Assembly (NCBI GenBank): GCA_002844335.1
Contig: CP019154.1
Location: 186,001-250,000, forward strand
DNA from: Haloarcula taiwanensis
GTDB taxonomy: Archaea > Halobacteriota > Halobacteria > Halobacteriales > Haloarculaceae
Direction: 5' to 3'
Length of the DNA: 64,000 nucleotides
The notes beneath the pieces were generated by a model, which saw nothing but the letters and a program-made list of their open reading frames with translations, did no database searches and was not told the origin of the DNA. Positions 9,401-15,837 of this stretch are shown piece after piece. Position 1 is the first letter of the stretch. Every line of letters starts with the position of its first letter. Position numbers and translations under genes: made by a program.

Positions 9401-10171
9401 TCAGTCCACGAGCGTCCCCAGCGGGAGCGGCTCTAGCCCCGCGTCCCTGACCGCGTCGCGCAGAACGGGGACGCGCTCGCGGAGTTCCGCCGGCGCGTGG
9501 CTGTCGGTACCGAGGACGAACTCGACGCCGGCCTCGCGGAACACGTCGAGGACCGCCGGGTCGGGGTGGACCCGGCCCAGCGAGCGGTGGACCCGGCCCG
9601 CGTTTAGTTCGGGGACCGTCCGCGAGTCCGCGAGCGCCGCGGCGACGCGCTCGTAGTCCTCGCGGGTGGTGTACCGCCGGAGCGCCCCCATCCGCTCGGG
9701 GAGGTCAAGGTGACCGAGCACCTCGAACAGCTCCGACTCCACGAGCGAGACGACGGCGTCGTAGTACCGCTCGACCGCCGCGCGCCGGTCCGCGCTGTCG
9801 AGGTCGGCGTACTGGCTGGCGCTGGTGTAGTCGTACGGCCCCGCGAAGTGGACGCTGCCGATGGTGTAGGCGAACTCGGCACGGTCGAGGAACGCCCCGA
9901 TACGGGCCTCGTCGCCCTCGACGTAGCTCACCTCGGCGGCGTCGTACAGCCGCAGGTCGGTCCCCGCTCGCGCTTCGTCGATGACCGCCCGCCGGTCGGC
10001 GTACGTCTCGACGAGGTCGTAGCGCTCGCGCCGCCCGAACGGGTCGTCGGTCACGATGCAGTGGTCCGTGAGCCCGAGCGCGTCGAGCCCGGCGGCCTCG
10101 GCGGCCGCGACCATGTCGCCGAGCGCCGACCCGTCGGAGAACGTCGTGTGGGCGTGTCCGTCGGCGTCCAT
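9401..10171 (-). CDS. PHP-domain phosphoesterase
   Basis: Metal-dependent phosphoesterase of the PHP fold, 256 residues. Seen motifs: DGHAHTTFSDGS (motif I, HxH), GLDALGLTDHC (motif II), the FEVLGHLDLPERM His, and the terminal GTDSHAPAELRER. The family includes histidinol phosphatases and other small-molecule phosphatases; the substrate here is unknown. It starts 3 nt after the stop of the ComB-like gene, so the two are almost certainly co-transcribed. With the upstream ECF transporter genes this suggests hydrolysis of a phosphorylated compound linked to an imported molecule. Confidence 0.85.
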   Translation of the reverse strand: MDADGHAHTTFSDGSALGDMVAAAEAAGLDALGLTDHCIVTDDPFGRRERYDLVETYADRRAVIDEARAGTDLRLYDAAEVSYVEGDEARIGAFLDRAEFAYTIGSVHFAGPYDYTSASQYADLDSADRRAAVERYYDAVVSLVESELFEVLGHLDLPERMGALRRYTTREDYERVAAALADSRTVPELNAGRVHRSLGRVHPDPAVLDVFREAGVEFVLGTDSHAPAELRERVPVLRDAVRDAGLEPLPLGTLVD

Positions 10172-10174
10172 CGC

Positions 10175-10924
10175 TCACTCGCCGCCGTCGCTCACGTCGA
10201 CCAGGCGCTGGTCGACGAGCTTCGGGACGACCTCGCGGCTGTCGAAGTCGAGGGTGTACTCGTAGAGGTCGGTCCGCTTGACCTGGGGCTTTCGCTCGTA
10301 CTTCGGCCCCTTCCCGAACGTGACCATCTCGCGGAACACCGCGCGCTGTTCTTCTGTCGGCGGACGCTCGTGGAGGTGTCGCGCGATGTACAGCGCCCCC
10401 GCGAGGTCCTCGGGAGAGGGCTTGCCGTTCGACCCCGCGCCGACGAAGTACGCCCGGCGGTCGCTGTCCCTGAGGTGTTCGGCGACGGCCTTGCCGTTGG
10501 TCAGACCGCCGACGTACACGTCGACGTCGTCGCCGCCCGCGAGCCGGAGGTCGGTGACCGCGTTGCCGCCGTTGGTCGAGGTCATCGCCGTCGGTCGGCC
10601 GGCCACGTCCACGTCCTGGACGAAGCTCGGCGAGTTGAAGAAGTCGTAGCCTTCCTCGCCCTCGTAGTTCGGCCCGGAACTGCCGCCGATTTTCGCGCGG
10701 GGGTGTTCGGCCTTGAAGTCGGGCTCGTTGCCTCGCTCTTCGGTGATGTAGATGTACTCCGCCCCGTTGGCGAACAGTTCGGGGACCGTCGTCGAGAACT
10801 GGGCCACGTCGACGACGACGTAGTTGCCCGGCTCGGGGTCGTCGGGAATCTGTGCCCGCGCCGGAATCATCGTCTCCAGCAGTTCCGCTTCGAGGTCGTC
10901 TTCGCCGTCGGAAACCAAGCGCAT
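10175..10924 (-). CDS. ComB-like 2-phosphosulfolactate phosphatase family protein
   Basis: A 249-residue protein with the layout of ComB, the enzyme removing phosphate from 2-phosphosulfolactate in coenzyme M synthesis. Family marks are VVVDVAQFSTTVPELFANGA (ComB: DVxRxxTTxxxxxxNGA), FFNSPSF and the loop TSTNGGNAV. The usual Arg of the first motif is Gln here, so the substrate may differ, and haloarchaea are not known to make coenzyme M. It has its own promoter (10981-10997) that resembles the promoter of the ECF operon upstream. The name describes the family, not a proven reaction. Confidence 0.7.
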   Translation of the reverse strand: MRLVSDGEDDLEAELLETMIPARAQIPDDPEPGNYVVVDVAQFSTTVPELFANGAEYIYITEERGNEPDFKAEHPRAKIGGSSGPNYEGEEGYDFFNSPSFVQDVDVAGRPTAMTSTNGGNAVTDLRLAGGDDVDVYVGGLTNGKAVAEHLRDSDRRAYFVGAGSNGKPSPEDLAGALYIARHLHERPPTEEQRAVFREMVTFGKGPKYERKPQVKRTDLYEYTLDFDSREVVPKLVDQRLVDVSDGGE

Positions 10925-10980
10925 ATGTGCAGGTTTTCTCCACGTTATTTAATTCGAACTAAGAGTGCTATACTAGGCTG

Positions 10981-10997
10981 CATACGTCTATATAGCC
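10981..10997 (-). promoter_or_regulatory. Promoter element of the ComB-like/PHP pair
   Basis: Read on the minus strand the sequence is GGCTATATAGACGTATG. The TATA-like part is about 65 nt from the ATG at 10924. The 12-nt core ATATAGACGTAT is identical to one upstream of the S-component gene (14552-14569), suggesting a shared regulator or a shared strong promoter. Confidence 0.55.
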
Positions 10998-11055
10998 GTT
11001 TTTTCGGCCGACGGGGTCCCTGCCGGTCGGGAGCGCCGGACGCTGGCGGCCGCGC

Positions 11056-11865
11056 TCACAGCGCGATGGCGATGACTGCGACCACGGCCAGCGACCCGGC
11101 GAAGAACCCGACGTCGCGGGGCCGGACCCGCATGTCGGCCAACTGCAGTTCCTTGCTCGCCTCGTCGTGCAGGGAGTGTGAGAACCCCCGCGTCTCCATC
11201 GCTTCGACGGTGACCCGGCTGCGCTTCGCGACGTTGAATATCATCGGATAGAACGCCCGCATCGACGTTTTCAGCAGGTAGGCGTAGTGTCGCCACCGGA
11301 AGCGGCCCGGCGACTCCGGCGCGGCGCTGCGGAGCCGATAGGCGTTGACGAGGTCGTGGTACTCCTCGAACAGCACCGGCAGCATCCGGTAGCCGTACGT
11401 GATGAGGAACGTGAACTGCCGGGGGATGCCGAGGCTCCGGAGTCCCCGCGCGAGCGTCTTCGGCCCCATGCTGGAGAAGACAGCCAGGCTCGACACCGAG
11501 ATGATGGTCAGTTTCAGCGTGAACGGAATCAGCGCCCGTATCGCGGCCAGCGGGTCGCCCGTGAAGGCGGTCACGACGGCGTACGACGCCAGCGTCGAGG
11601 CGACGGTAAACGCCATCAGCGCGACCAGAACGAGGCTCACCCGGGAGGCGTACGCGAGCAGCGAGACGAACGCCAGCAGGGCCAGCAGGACGCCCACGTC
11701 GTAGAACAGCCACGGGACGAACAGGAAGACGACGTACCACAGCAACAGCACGCGGGGGTCCAGTCGGTGCAGGAACGACCCCTCGTTCTCGTAGGCCGTC
11801 TTCAGCAGGTCGTTCTTGATGGCGTCGACCGAGGTGGCGTCCCGGAGCCCGTCGAGGTACGTCAT
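11056..11865 (-). CDS. ECF transporter transmembrane protein (EcfT/CbiQ family)
   Basis: The T component couples the ATPase to the substrate-binding S protein in energy-coupling-factor importers. The 269-residue protein has membrane helices in the first half (VLLLWYVVFLFVPWLFYDVGVLLALLAFVSLLAY) and the cytoplasmic coupling region with the family's Ala-Arg-Gly signatures, seen as MGPKTLARGLRSLGIP and VEAMETRGFS. The start overlaps the ATPase stop by 4 nt, giving translational coupling. Confidence 0.85.
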   Translation of the reverse strand: MTYLDGLRDATSVDAIKNDLLKTAYENEGSFLHRLDPRVLLLWYVVFLFVPWLFYDVGVLLALLAFVSLLAYASRVSLVLVALMAFTVASTLASYAVVTAFTGDPLAAIRALIPFTLKLTIISVSSLAVFSSMGPKTLARGLRSLGIPRQFTFLITYGYRMLPVLFEEYHDLVNAYRLRSAAPESPGRFRWRHYAYLLKTSMRAFYPMIFNVAKRSRVTVEAMETRGFSHSLHDEASKELQLADMRVRPRDVGFFAGSLAVVAVIAIAL

Positions 11866-13607
11866 CGCTCGGCCTCCACGGCGGCGCTCTCGGCGGTTTC
11901 AAGCCGACTCGCGAGGTCTTCCACGGTCAACGGCGCGGGCGAGAGCCCGAGGCGCTCGCTCAGCCGGACGACCTGCGGTGGTCGCAGGCTCGCCCGTTCC
12001 AGCGTCTCGGCGTCCGAAAAGACTGTCTCCGGCGGTCCGTCGGCGATGACCCGGCCCTCGTCGAGGACGACGACGCGGGTCGCCCACGACGCCGCCAGTT
12101 CGAGGTCGTGGGTCGCGACGACGACCGTCTCGACGCGCTGGCCCGCCCGGTCGATGGTCCGCCCGACCTCCGCCCGACTCGCCAGGTCCAGGCTCCCCGT
12201 CGGCTCGTCGAGCAGGACGATAGAGGGGTCCGTCGCCAGCCCGATGGCCAGCGAGGCGCGCCGTTGCTGGCCGACGCTCAGCAGGCGGCCGTCGCGGTGC
12301 TGGAGCGCGTCGAGGTCGAGGAACTCTATCACGTCGTCGACCCGCTGGTCCACGTCCGGGTACCCACGGTCGCGGAGGTAGTGGGCCACGTCGGCGCGCA
12401 CCTCGTCCTCGATGAACATCTCCTCGGGGTTCTGGTGAACGTACACCACGTCCTCGGCGAGCGTCTCCGGCAGCGCCGCCCCGGCGTCGACGCCGTCGAC
12501 GGTCACCTCGCCCGTGTCGGCGCGCTCGATGCCGGTGACGAGGCGCAGCAGCGTCGACTTGCCCGCGCCGTTGCTTCCGACGAGGACGACCCGCTCGTCC
12601 GGGTAGAGGTCCAGCGAGAGGCCGTCGAGCGCCTGTCGCGTCCCTTCGCGGAGCGTCTCGTAGCTGTGGGACACGTCCGTGAGAGAGATGACCGGCTCCC
12701 GCCCGGCGTCGGCCGCGGCGGACGCGGGGGACGGTTCGACCGCGCCGTCTGCTCGCGCGCCGCCGGCCGCCCGCCCTTCGAACCGCGCCGCGCCGTCGGC
12801 GACGGTCACGGGGAGGTCCCCGTCGTCGTCACACACCCGCTCGGCGACGCGGGTCACCTGCGGCGGGTGGACGTCCTGTGCCCGGAGGTCGTCGAGCCTG
12901 TTCAGCGCGTCCTCGACCGGGAGCTTCCACTGGACCGCTCCGTCAGCGACCAGCACGACGCTCTCGCAGTACTCCGCGATGAACTCGGTGTGGTGTTCGA
13001 TGGTGACCACCGTCTTCCCGTGGTCGGCGTTGAGGTCGGTGAGGTGCTCGTAGGTCGACCGGGCGTTGACGGGGTCCAGTTGGGCCGCCGGCTCGTCGAC
13101 GACGAGTATCTCGGGGTCGAGCGACAGCGCCGCCGCGAGGGCGACGAGGTGCTTCTGGCCGCCCGATAGCTCCCAGATGAACCGGTCTTCGAGCCCGTCG
13201 AGGTCCAGCAGGTCGAGTGTGCGGTGGACCCGCTCGCGGTAGTCCTCCCGGCCGTAGTTCAGCGGCGCGAACGCCACCTCCTCGAACACCGTGGGGTTGA
13301 CCAGCTGATTGTCGAACTCCTGGAACACGTAGCCGACGTGCTGTGAGAGTTCGGCGACCGAACTGCTCGCGGTGTCGAGCCCGGCGACCGTGACGCGCCC
13401 GTCGAACGTCCCCTCGTAGAAGTGGGGGACGATGCCGTTGAACGACTTACAGAGGGTCGTCTTGCCGGAGCCGTTCCCGCCGACGACGGCGACGAACTCG
13501 CCCGGCTCGATGGTCACGTCGGCCCCGTCGAGGACGTTCTCGTCGGTCCCGGGGTAGCGAAACGACAGGTCGTCGACGACGATGGCGGCGTCGTGTGTTT
13601 CGTCCAT
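11862..13607 (-). CDS. ECF transporter ATPase, two fused ABC domains
   Basis: A single 581-residue chain holding both ATPase modules of an ECF importer. The first domain has Walker A GGNGSGKTTLC, signature ELSGGQKHLVALAA and Walker B ILVVDEPAA. The second has Walker A GSNGAGKSTLL, signature LLSVGQQRRASLA and Walker B IVLLDEPTG. An acidic linker of about 70 residues separates them, and each half is followed by a short C-terminal extension typical of EcfA. Many ECF systems use two separate genes, so this is a fusion. It lies 6 nt downstream of the S-like gene and overlaps ecfT. Confidence 0.93.
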   Translation of the reverse strand: MDETHDAAIVVDDLSFRYPGTDENVLDGADVTIEPGEFVAVVGGNGSGKTTLCKSFNGIVPHFYEGTFDGRVTVAGLDTASSSVAELSQHVGYVFQEFDNQLVNPTVFEEVAFAPLNYGREDYRERVHRTLDLLDLDGLEDRFIWELSGGQKHLVALAAALSLDPEILVVDEPAAQLDPVNARSTYEHLTDLNADHGKTVVTIEHHTEFIAEYCESVVLVADGAVQWKLPVEDALNRLDDLRAQDVHPPQVTRVAERVCDDDGDLPVTVADGAARFEGRAAGGARADGAVEPSPASAAADAGREPVISLTDVSHSYETLREGTRQALDGLSLDLYPDERVVLVGSNGAGKSTLLRLVTGIERADTGEVTVDGVDAGAALPETLAEDVVYVHQNPEEMFIEDEVRADVAHYLRDRGYPDVDQRVDDVIEFLDLDALQHRDGRLLSVGQQRRASLAIGLATDPSIVLLDEPTGSLDLASRAEVGRTIDRAGQRVETVVVATHDLELAASWATRVVVLDEGRVIADGPPETVFSDAETLERASLRPPQVVRLSERLGLSPAPLTVEDLASRLETAESAAVEAER

Positions 13608-13613
13608 CGCTGT

Positions 13614-14471
13614 TCAGGACGGCCGCTGGGTCGCTCGGTACCAGACGACGGCGGCGACGACGGCCGAGACCGCGATGGGGACCGCGATGAAGGTCTGGCC
13701 GTACACCTCCAGGAATTCGGGCTCCCAGACGACGTTTATCGCGCCGCCGACCTCGCTGGCCGCTTCGGCGACGAACGCCAGCGGGAAGGCCACAAGCATC
13801 GCGAGGAACGCCTTCGCGGAGAACCCGCGCCACATCGAGGCCCCGCGCTCGCCCTCGTAGGGCTCCATCCCCAGCAGCGGTTCGACCTTGCCGTGGAGCT
13901 TCGGGTAGAGGTACAGCGCCGGGATGACGCCGAAGACGATGCCGGTGATGACCATCTGCGTGACGAGGTCGACGGCCTCCAGCACGAGGATGCTCTCGGG
14001 GAGCCCGGGGACGGCCTCCAGTTCCTCGACGCCGACGTACACCTTGCCGATGTCGATGAACATCGCGAAGAACTCCTCTAAGCCCTCCGCGAGGAACACG
14101 ACGAGGGCGAGTTGGGTCGTGTTCTCCGGGTCCTGCAGGAGCTTCGCGGCGAAGTAGTAACAGACCGGAATCAGGAGGACCCCCTCCATCGCCCCGAGCC
14201 CGTCGAACTCGCCCAGCAGGATTTCGCCGAACACGATTTCGCCGACCGGGACGGCGAGCGCCGCCCAGTAGGTCCGAAAGAGGAGGACCAGGACGACGGG
14301 GATGAAGACGAACTCACCGACCCCGAGTTCGAGCGGCCCCAGCGTGAACTCCGGGAGTATCTCTGTCACGGCGTTTTGCAACCCCGTGAGGGACATGACG
14401 AGGATGAACACCATCATGTCCTGTTTGTCGAACGTGAACCAGCTCTCTGACGCGGTCGACGTTGCGCTCAT
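13614..14471 (-). CDS. Probable ECF transporter substrate-binding (S) component
   Basis: A 285-residue integral membrane protein with about seven to eight hydrophobic segments (for example EFVFIPVVLVLLFRTYWAAL and KAFLAMLVAFPLAFVAEAAS). It is encoded immediately upstream of the ATPase and T genes, the usual place for the S protein that picks the substrate. It is longer than typical S components (about 180-200 residues), and several Asp/Glu lie in or near helices. I do not recognise it as RibU, ThiT, BioY, CbiM or another named S family, so the transported molecule is unknown. Confidence 0.6.
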   Translation of the reverse strand: MSATSTASESWFTFDKQDMMVFILVMSLTGLQNAVTEILPEFTLGPLELGVGEFVFIPVVLVLLFRTYWAALAVPVGEIVFGEILLGEFDGLGAMEGVLLIPVCYYFAAKLLQDPENTTQLALVVFLAEGLEEFFAMFIDIGKVYVGVEELEAVPGLPESILVLEAVDLVTQMVITGIVFGVIPALYLYPKLHGKVEPLLGMEPYEGERGASMWRGFSAKAFLAMLVAFPLAFVAEAASEVGGAINVVWEPEFLEVYGQTFIAVPIAVSAVVAAVVWYRATQRPS

Positions 14472-14551
14472 GCTTCAGCCCAACCGACATCTGGTTCCCT
14501 ATTTGAACGCTTATAATAGTACTCTGATAGCTATTGGTCGACAACAGCTCT

Positions 14552-14569
14552 GTATACGTCTATATGGCG
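14552..14569 (-). promoter_or_regulatory. Promoter element of the ECF operon
   Basis: On the minus strand it reads CGCCATATAGACGTATAC, about 81 nt upstream of the S-gene ATG at 14471. It shares ATATAGACGTAT exactly with the element before the ComB-like gene. The surrounding 14472-14700 is AT-rich and also serves the divergent kinase gene; a TATA-like GGTCTATATATTCC at 14635-14648 points toward the kinase. Confidence 0.5.
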
Positions 14570-14709
14570 ATACGTTCGAACAATTGCTCTCGGCACTCCG
14601 TCGCTCGCCACGCGCAGGCAGTACGCTACGAGCCGGTCTATATATTCCAATGTCGTCGATAGAGTGCTCATAGTCACCCTTAGATGGCCGCTTCGAGGAC
14701 GATACGACG

Positions 14710-15837
14710 ATGCGTCCGCTCTCGGACGGGAGTGACTGGGAGACCTTCGCCGACACCTACTGGCCCGCCTGCGCCGTCGTCGCCGGGTCCGCGCTGTACG
14801 TCCTCGTCCAGTTGCTCCTCTGGCCCTGGGAGACCGCCCACGCGCTCCCCGACGTCGTCGGTGAGGGCGCGGTCGTGCTCGCGCTCCTCGCGGCCGTCTT
14901 CGTCGTCCAGCGCATCCCGGAGCGGCGACTGTACCGCCCGCTGATGGGCGGGCTCACCGTCTTCCACCTGTTCGCGCTGACGGACTTCCTGGACGAGTTT
15001 GTCAGCCCCCCGAACGCCTACGGGCTCCTGTTCGAGAACGGCGCGCAGGCGGTCGGCACCGTCCTGCTGGTCGTCGGTATCTATCGCTGGACGGTCGCTC
15101 GCCGGGAGCGAGAACAGGAACTCCAGTCCCGGACCGACCAGCTGGAGGTGCTGAACCGCCTTCTCAGGAACGACGTCCGGAACGACACGATGGTCATCCG
15201 GGGGTGGGCCTCGGTGCTCCAGCGCGAGGCGGGGGCCGATGCCGACGACTGCCTCGGCCGAATCGTCGCCGCCGCGAACGGCATCATCGACCTGACCGAG
15301 ACCACCGAGGAGTTCACGGACGCGCTGACGACGGCCGAGACGGTCGACCTCGAACGGCGGTCGCTGGCCCCGACCATCGAGGGCGAGGTCGAGAAGCTAC
15401 GGGCCCGGTACGACGGCGCGCGGGTCGAAATCGACGGCTCGCTCCCCCGCGTCGACGTGGTCGCCCACAGCATGCTCCCCGCCGTCTTCCGGAACCTCCT
15501 GACGAACGCCGTCGAACACAACGACGCGGCGACGCCGACAGTCCGCGTCAGCGCCGAGCGGGTCGGCGACGCCGTCCACGTCCGCGTCGCCGACAACGGG
15601 CCGGGGATTCCCGACGACCGGAAAGACGCCGTCTTCGCCAGGACCGAGTCCGGCGACGGGCCGCCGACCTCCGGGTTCGGGCTCTATCTCGTCAAGACTC
15701 TCGTCGCGGAGTTCGGCGGCGACGTTCGGGTCGCCGACGCCGAGACCGGGGGTGCCGTCTTCACCGTCGTGTTGCGGGTCGCCAGCAGCGGCCCGCTCCC
15801 CGATTTCGACCCGGTGGACGCACGCTCGCCTCGCTAA
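14710..15837 (+). CDS. Membrane sensor histidine kinase-like protein with Asn at the H-box
   Basis: A 375-residue protein with four N-terminal membrane helices, a short coiled segment (REREQELQSRTDQLEVLNR), a dimerisation/H-box region and a HATPase domain. The ATP site looks intact: N box FRNLLTNAVEHND, G1 VADNGPGIPDD, G2 SGFGLYLVKTL. In haloarchaeal kinases the H-box normally reads LRHDxRND; here it is LLRNDVRND, so the phospho-accepting His is replaced by Asn (codon aac at about 15191). It may signal without autophosphorylation or be an inactive partner. It lies between the divergent ECF operon and rdfA. Confidence 0.85.
   Translation: MRPLSDGSDWETFADTYWPACAVVAGSALYVLVQLLLWPWETAHALPDVVGEGAVVLALLAAVFVVQRIPERRLYRPLMGGLTVFHLFALTDFLDEFVSPPNAYGLLFENGAQAVGTVLLVVGIYRWTVARREREQELQSRTDQLEVLNRLLRNDVRNDTMVIRGWASVLQREAGADADDCLGRIVAAANGIIDLTETTEEFTDALTTAETVDLERRSLAPTIEGEVEKLRARYDGARVEIDGSLPRVDVVAHSMLPAVFRNLLTNAVEHNDAATPTVRVSAERVGDAVHVRVADNGPGIPDDRKDAVFARTESGDGPPTSGFGLYLVKTLVAEFGGDVRVADAETGGAVFTVVLRVASSGPLPDFDPVDARSPR

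Follow-up and report, generated by a model that had tools for sequence, protein, structure and literature searches.

The window, that is, the whole 64,000-nucleotide stretch of Haloarcula taiwanensis DNA analysed here, contains five adjacent open reading frames (ORFs), all on the minus strand and at the positions given in the initial annotation. The S-like ORF (13614-14471) encodes a protein of 285 amino acids that is predicted to adopt an S-component fold with two extra C-terminal helices; the gene for a fused double ECF ATPase (EcfA-EcfA′; 11862-13607) starts 6 nt past it and overlaps by 4 nt with the gene for the ECF T component (11056-11865; PF02361 CbiQ, E 3.4e-15). The overlapping order originally described therefore applies to the ATPase and T genes, but not to the S and ATPase genes. 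The remaining two genes, separated by 3 nt in the window ORFs, encode a ComB-fold phosphatase-like enzyme that is not a canonical ComB (10175-10924; PF04029, E 1.7e-22) and a PHP-domain phosphoesterase of the HisJ/PRK07328-like type (9401-10171; PF02811).

Transport proteins and enzymes

The fused ATPase scores beyond the thresholds of both TIGR04520 (357.8 bits; cut-off 315) and TIGR04521 (339.1 bits; cut-off 330), and the NCBIfam profile matches fall on two ATPase stretches in one protein, providing the two ATPase domains of an ECF importer. The T protein belongs to the CbiQ family, with a PF02361 match above the cut-off; among the NCBIfam profiles, the cut-off of the cobalt-specific TIGR02454 was not reached. 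At the loci examined, the S gene is always followed by those for the fused ATPase and T protein. The window S protein matched no Pfam or NCBIfam family, and diverged haloarchaeal and bacterial S proteins likewise had no Pfam match; by these profile searches, the S-component is a member of no curated S family. Structure modelling, which had been proposed as a check, recovered an S-component-type fold: with an AlphaFold model built from a 30-sequence alignment (pLDDT 79; an earlier model from 14 close sequences was dropped, with a pLDDT of only 50), the top non-spurious Foldseek matches were ThiT, RibU, FolT, and 5edl, another S-component, with probabilities from 0.99 to 0.6, but E-values of at least 0.1. 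The modelled fold thus supports assignment of the S-like protein as an ECF S-component, with high match probability and weak E-values. Dedicated ECF modules of the YkoE/YkoD/YkoC-like type consist of an S-component, a fused double ATPase, and a T component, and the importer described here resembles them in gene order, fused ATPase, T component, and S-component fold; it differs from them in that its S protein lacks a curated family and carries the two additional helices, and in that phosphatases accompany it under a promoter element like that of pstS.

The ComB-like protein shares with ComB 2-phosphosulfolactate phosphatase (PF04029, TIGR00298) a fold family, with 1vr0 as the nearest solved structure, and the conserved Asp, Asn, and Glu-Asp residues (Asp39, Asn118, Asn143, and Glu172-Asp173). 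Unlike ComB, however, it has Gln/His in place of the canonical Arg (DVLRA) and a likewise substituted Glu (GExxG), and although it scores 80 bits with PF04029, it falls below every NCBIfam equivalog threshold, with 41 bits against a cut-off of 175 for TIGR00298 and, for the best PRK model, 51 bits where 319 are required. Furthermore, ComA (PF02679) was not found in the window genome, while the control genomes were positive. A coenzyme-M or sulfonate role for the module is disfavoured because of the missing ComA partner and the two replaced canonical ComB residues. F420 salvage, with the ComB-fold enzyme acting on 2-phospholactate, was considered as well, and nothing was found in its support.

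The PHP protein has the same domain and the same metal-ligand residues as HisJ-type histidinol phosphatase (2yxo, the nearest solved structure, E 4.5e-20), with histidine and aspartate residues invariant across 10 orthologues. Unlike HisJ, it remains under the family cut-offs (111.7 bits with NF005596; cut-off 202) and its neighbourhood is not one of histidine biosynthesis; that role, raised by the HisJ-like match, was set aside as not fitting the context.

Promoter elements shared with pstS

The claim that a core motif occurs exactly in both promoters was confirmed for ATATAGACGTAT, found on the minus strand at 10982-10993 in the comB promoter and at 14554-14565 in the S promoter. The genome-wide search named beforehand as a check showed this sequence to be rare: the 3.72 Mb genome has three copies, of which the importer and comB promoters account for two. 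The third exact copy lies on a smaller replicon (L003; G000:C3:42510), near the start of an ORF reading as a NERD-type protein. Most of the close Haloarcula relatives keep ATATAGNNNTA before the S gene. Genome-wide there are 10 matches to the relaxed form ATATAGNNGTAY, and one relaxed match stood before pstS, upon which pstS promoters were examined.

Many Haloarcula pstS promoters were found to have ATATAGNNGTATATAG and TATAGNGCTAATAGTAG in common, about 50 bases before the start, and a 17-base position weight matrix was trained on 13 distinct pstS sites and nothing else. Scores of at least 10 bits were obtained with this matrix for 20 of the 22 pstS loci taken from other genera. The comB promoter contains a proximal Pho-box-like element, TATAGCACTCTTAGTTC (10956-10972, minus strand), at −48 and with 11.6 bits, a score attained by 0.6% of 345 background promoters; the element that comB shares with pstS stands at the same position in both. 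The pst promoters of Halobacterium are reported to contain Pho boxes that are essential for induction (PMC6560208). In comB, ATATAG lies 20 bases upstream of the proximal site, and it recurs at matching spacing in pstS promoters. The exact ATATAGACGTAT motif, which starts 20 bp farther upstream than the proximal site, is the distal portion of a promoter element that most of the haloarchaea examined also have about 50 bases ahead of pstS. The S promoter has a weaker proximal element, AATAGCTATCAGAGTAC (14519-14535, minus strand; 8.6 bits), at −64 and 29 bp downstream of the distal element, and this weakness relative to comB counts against a phosphate-linked role.

Five exact proximal TATAGNNNTMWTAGY sites are present in the window genome, three of which precede comB, pstS, and a second pstS-like gene by 47-48 bases. 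The fourth (L180; G000:C2:252924) lies 112 bases before a gene reading as a BMP-family nucleoside-binding lipoprotein, and the fifth has no called gene downstream. A reversed-pattern control was uninformative, since the window genome matches the reversed pattern much more often (85 vs. 24 matches).

Among importer-linked comB promoters, 31 of 41 have a site of at least 8 bits between −56 and −44, compared with 3 of 319 background promoters, and over a broader range of positions S promoters attain the threshold in 18 of 44 cases, compared with 6 of 319 in the background—counts that take in related species, so that p-values overstate the independent evidence. A purely basal promoter element, as the motif might have been, was rejected on these background numbers; of the three background promoters carrying it, two belong to an inositol-phosphatase gene adjoining the importer and to the divergent kinase gene. 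Where the arrangement is divergent, TIM-barrel promoters score 13 to 19 bits; the two inositol-phosphatase promoters have 14.5 and 17.6 bits at −48.

In the window itself, the divergent histidine-kinase-like gene (14710-15837, plus strand) has a pstS-type element, TAGAGTGCTCATAGTCA (14660-14676, plus strand; 13.1 bits), at −50, and is among the top background promoters. A block of kinase, RdfA, and SMC-related (ASRP) genes adjoins the S-A-T genes in Haloferax gibbonsii and H. prahovense (L086, L087), with the element absent. At another locus (L144), a metallophosphatase gene and a gene reading as polyphosphate kinase are preceded by CTATATAGACAACATA, which is also present in pstS promoters of other species (L156-L158).

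Distribution and exchangeable partner enzymes

The S gene is carried by 34 of 292 Halobacteria genomes, 32 of which also have a comB-like gene, compared with 24 of the 258 S-negative genomes (Fisher p 4e-25, a value that overstates independence because the genomes are related). In the first set of relatives, the S and comB-like genes were found in the same 17 genomes, the window genome included, with comB-like genes lacking S in a few divergent cases. The comB gene is placed downstream, upstream, or divergent of the importer, yet the genes remain adjacent. The phylogenetic profile thus bears out the predicted co-occurrence for the importer and the comB-like gene, but not for all five genes, since PHP is not constant. 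Taken with the non-basal motif, this co-occurrence argues for the initial proposal that uptake and dephosphorylation belong to one functional unit whose genes share a regulatory motif.

In Haloarcula and Halosimplex, the second enzyme beside the ComB-like protein is PHP, whereas Natrinema, Halovivax, Haloferax, and Actinarchaeum have a xylose-isomerase-like TIM barrel (PF01261) in its place; PHP and the TIM barrel never occur together at importer/comB loci, and Halegenticoccus has neither. Both S loci without a comB-like gene have inositol-phosphatase-type genes, two of them in the case of the Halopiger plasmid. In bacteria, the S-A-T cluster of Paenibacillus is accompanied by two PHP genes and RpiR-SIS, that of Niallia by RpiR-like and PHP genes (by sequence reading), and that of Streptomyces by LacI and a tandem HAD protein. 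The odds are about even that the S proteins constitute a new ECF S-component family serving to acquire phosphorus through import of a phosphorylated organic compound, with the partner phosphatase repeatedly swapped among unrelated families (ComB-fold, PHP, TIM barrel, inositol-phosphatase type, and HAD) in archaea and bacteria.

Genes for ComB-like proteins also occur apart from the importer. In two genomes of one genus (L063, 5558-9024; L139, 10308-13691), such a gene ends a pstS-pstC-pstA-pstB-phoU operon, in which PstB and PhoU were assigned by NCBIfam and pstS, pstC, and pstA by sequence reading; neither operon has an ECF importer. The pstS genes of these operons score weakly, at 5 bits, which counts against a phosphate-linked role. 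At a further locus without an importer (L135, 5982-13189), comB-like and PHP genes are found amid sugar-acid genes (HpcH aldolase, enolase superfamily).

A possible route for phosphorus acquisition

Overall, the five genes probably make up a module for phosphorus scavenging with a Pho-type promoter, bringing in an organophosphate and releasing phosphate inside the cell; a rough probability of 0.6 is assigned to this reading. When phosphate is scarce, a putative regulator acting on pstS would also turn on the importer and the comB/PHP genes; the organophosphate would be bound by the S-component at the cell surface and moved inward with power from the fused ATPase and T protein, and the cytoplasmic enzymes would set free inorganic phosphate. 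The phosphate-starvation genes of haloarchaea, pst and ugp, are reportedly the subject of studies by Wende (2009) and Furtwangler (2010), both cited in PMC6560208. The proposed module has its promoter element and the position of that element in common with pstS, and its import followed by internal hydrolysis resembles Ugp with a diesterase; where pst and ugp have a binding-protein ABC importer, however, it would rely on one of the ECF type. A literature search of open-licence papers found no report linking an ECF transporter to phosphate starvation. A phosphorylated sugar or polyol is tentatively suggested as the substrate, a weak guess made because of the RpiR-SIS/LacI regulators in the bacterial versions and the inositol-phosphatase-type enzymes in other haloarchaea.

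ECF transporters are known chiefly as importers of vitamins and metals, and the ligands of S-components are so far mostly of these kinds, which counts against phosphorus scavenging. A less probable explanation is that S takes up a phosphorylated cofactor precursor, such as flavin or thiamin phosphate, which the enzymes trim, phosphate control being secondary. The nearest folds (ThiT, RibU, and FolT) and the fused ATPases typical of vitamin importers are consistent with it; however, vitamin biosynthesis genes are not consistently adjacent, the enzyme family changes freely, and comB is found within pst operons. Moreover, phosphorus acquisition fits better than cofactor supply because the motif resembles the pstS promoter element.

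Somewhat more doubtful still are two separate, co-regulated functions, with the importer supplying a phosphate-free starvation nutrient and the ComB-like and PHP enzymes recycling internal phosphate esters. The importer-free comB genes, in pst operons and alone, and the separate promoters of S and comB would accord with this division, but the near-perfect co-localisation across rearrangements and the phosphatase genes adjoining bacterial S-A-T clusters do not. The sulfonated, coenzyme-M-like compound of the initial annotation, taken up or processed via a true 2-phosphosulfolactate phosphatase, is very improbable: membership in PF04029 speaks for it, but the genome without ComA, the scores far under the ComB equivalog cut-offs, the replaced Arg and Glu, and the lack of ComB at related importer loci with other phosphatases all speak against it.

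A link of this importer to phosphate starvation would open the way to a direct growth test in Haloarcula or Haloferax. An S-component family that is so far unclassified would gain a function, as would haloarchaeal proteins now misannotated as coenzyme-M enzymes, and the role of ECF transporters would be widened to bulk nutrient supply.
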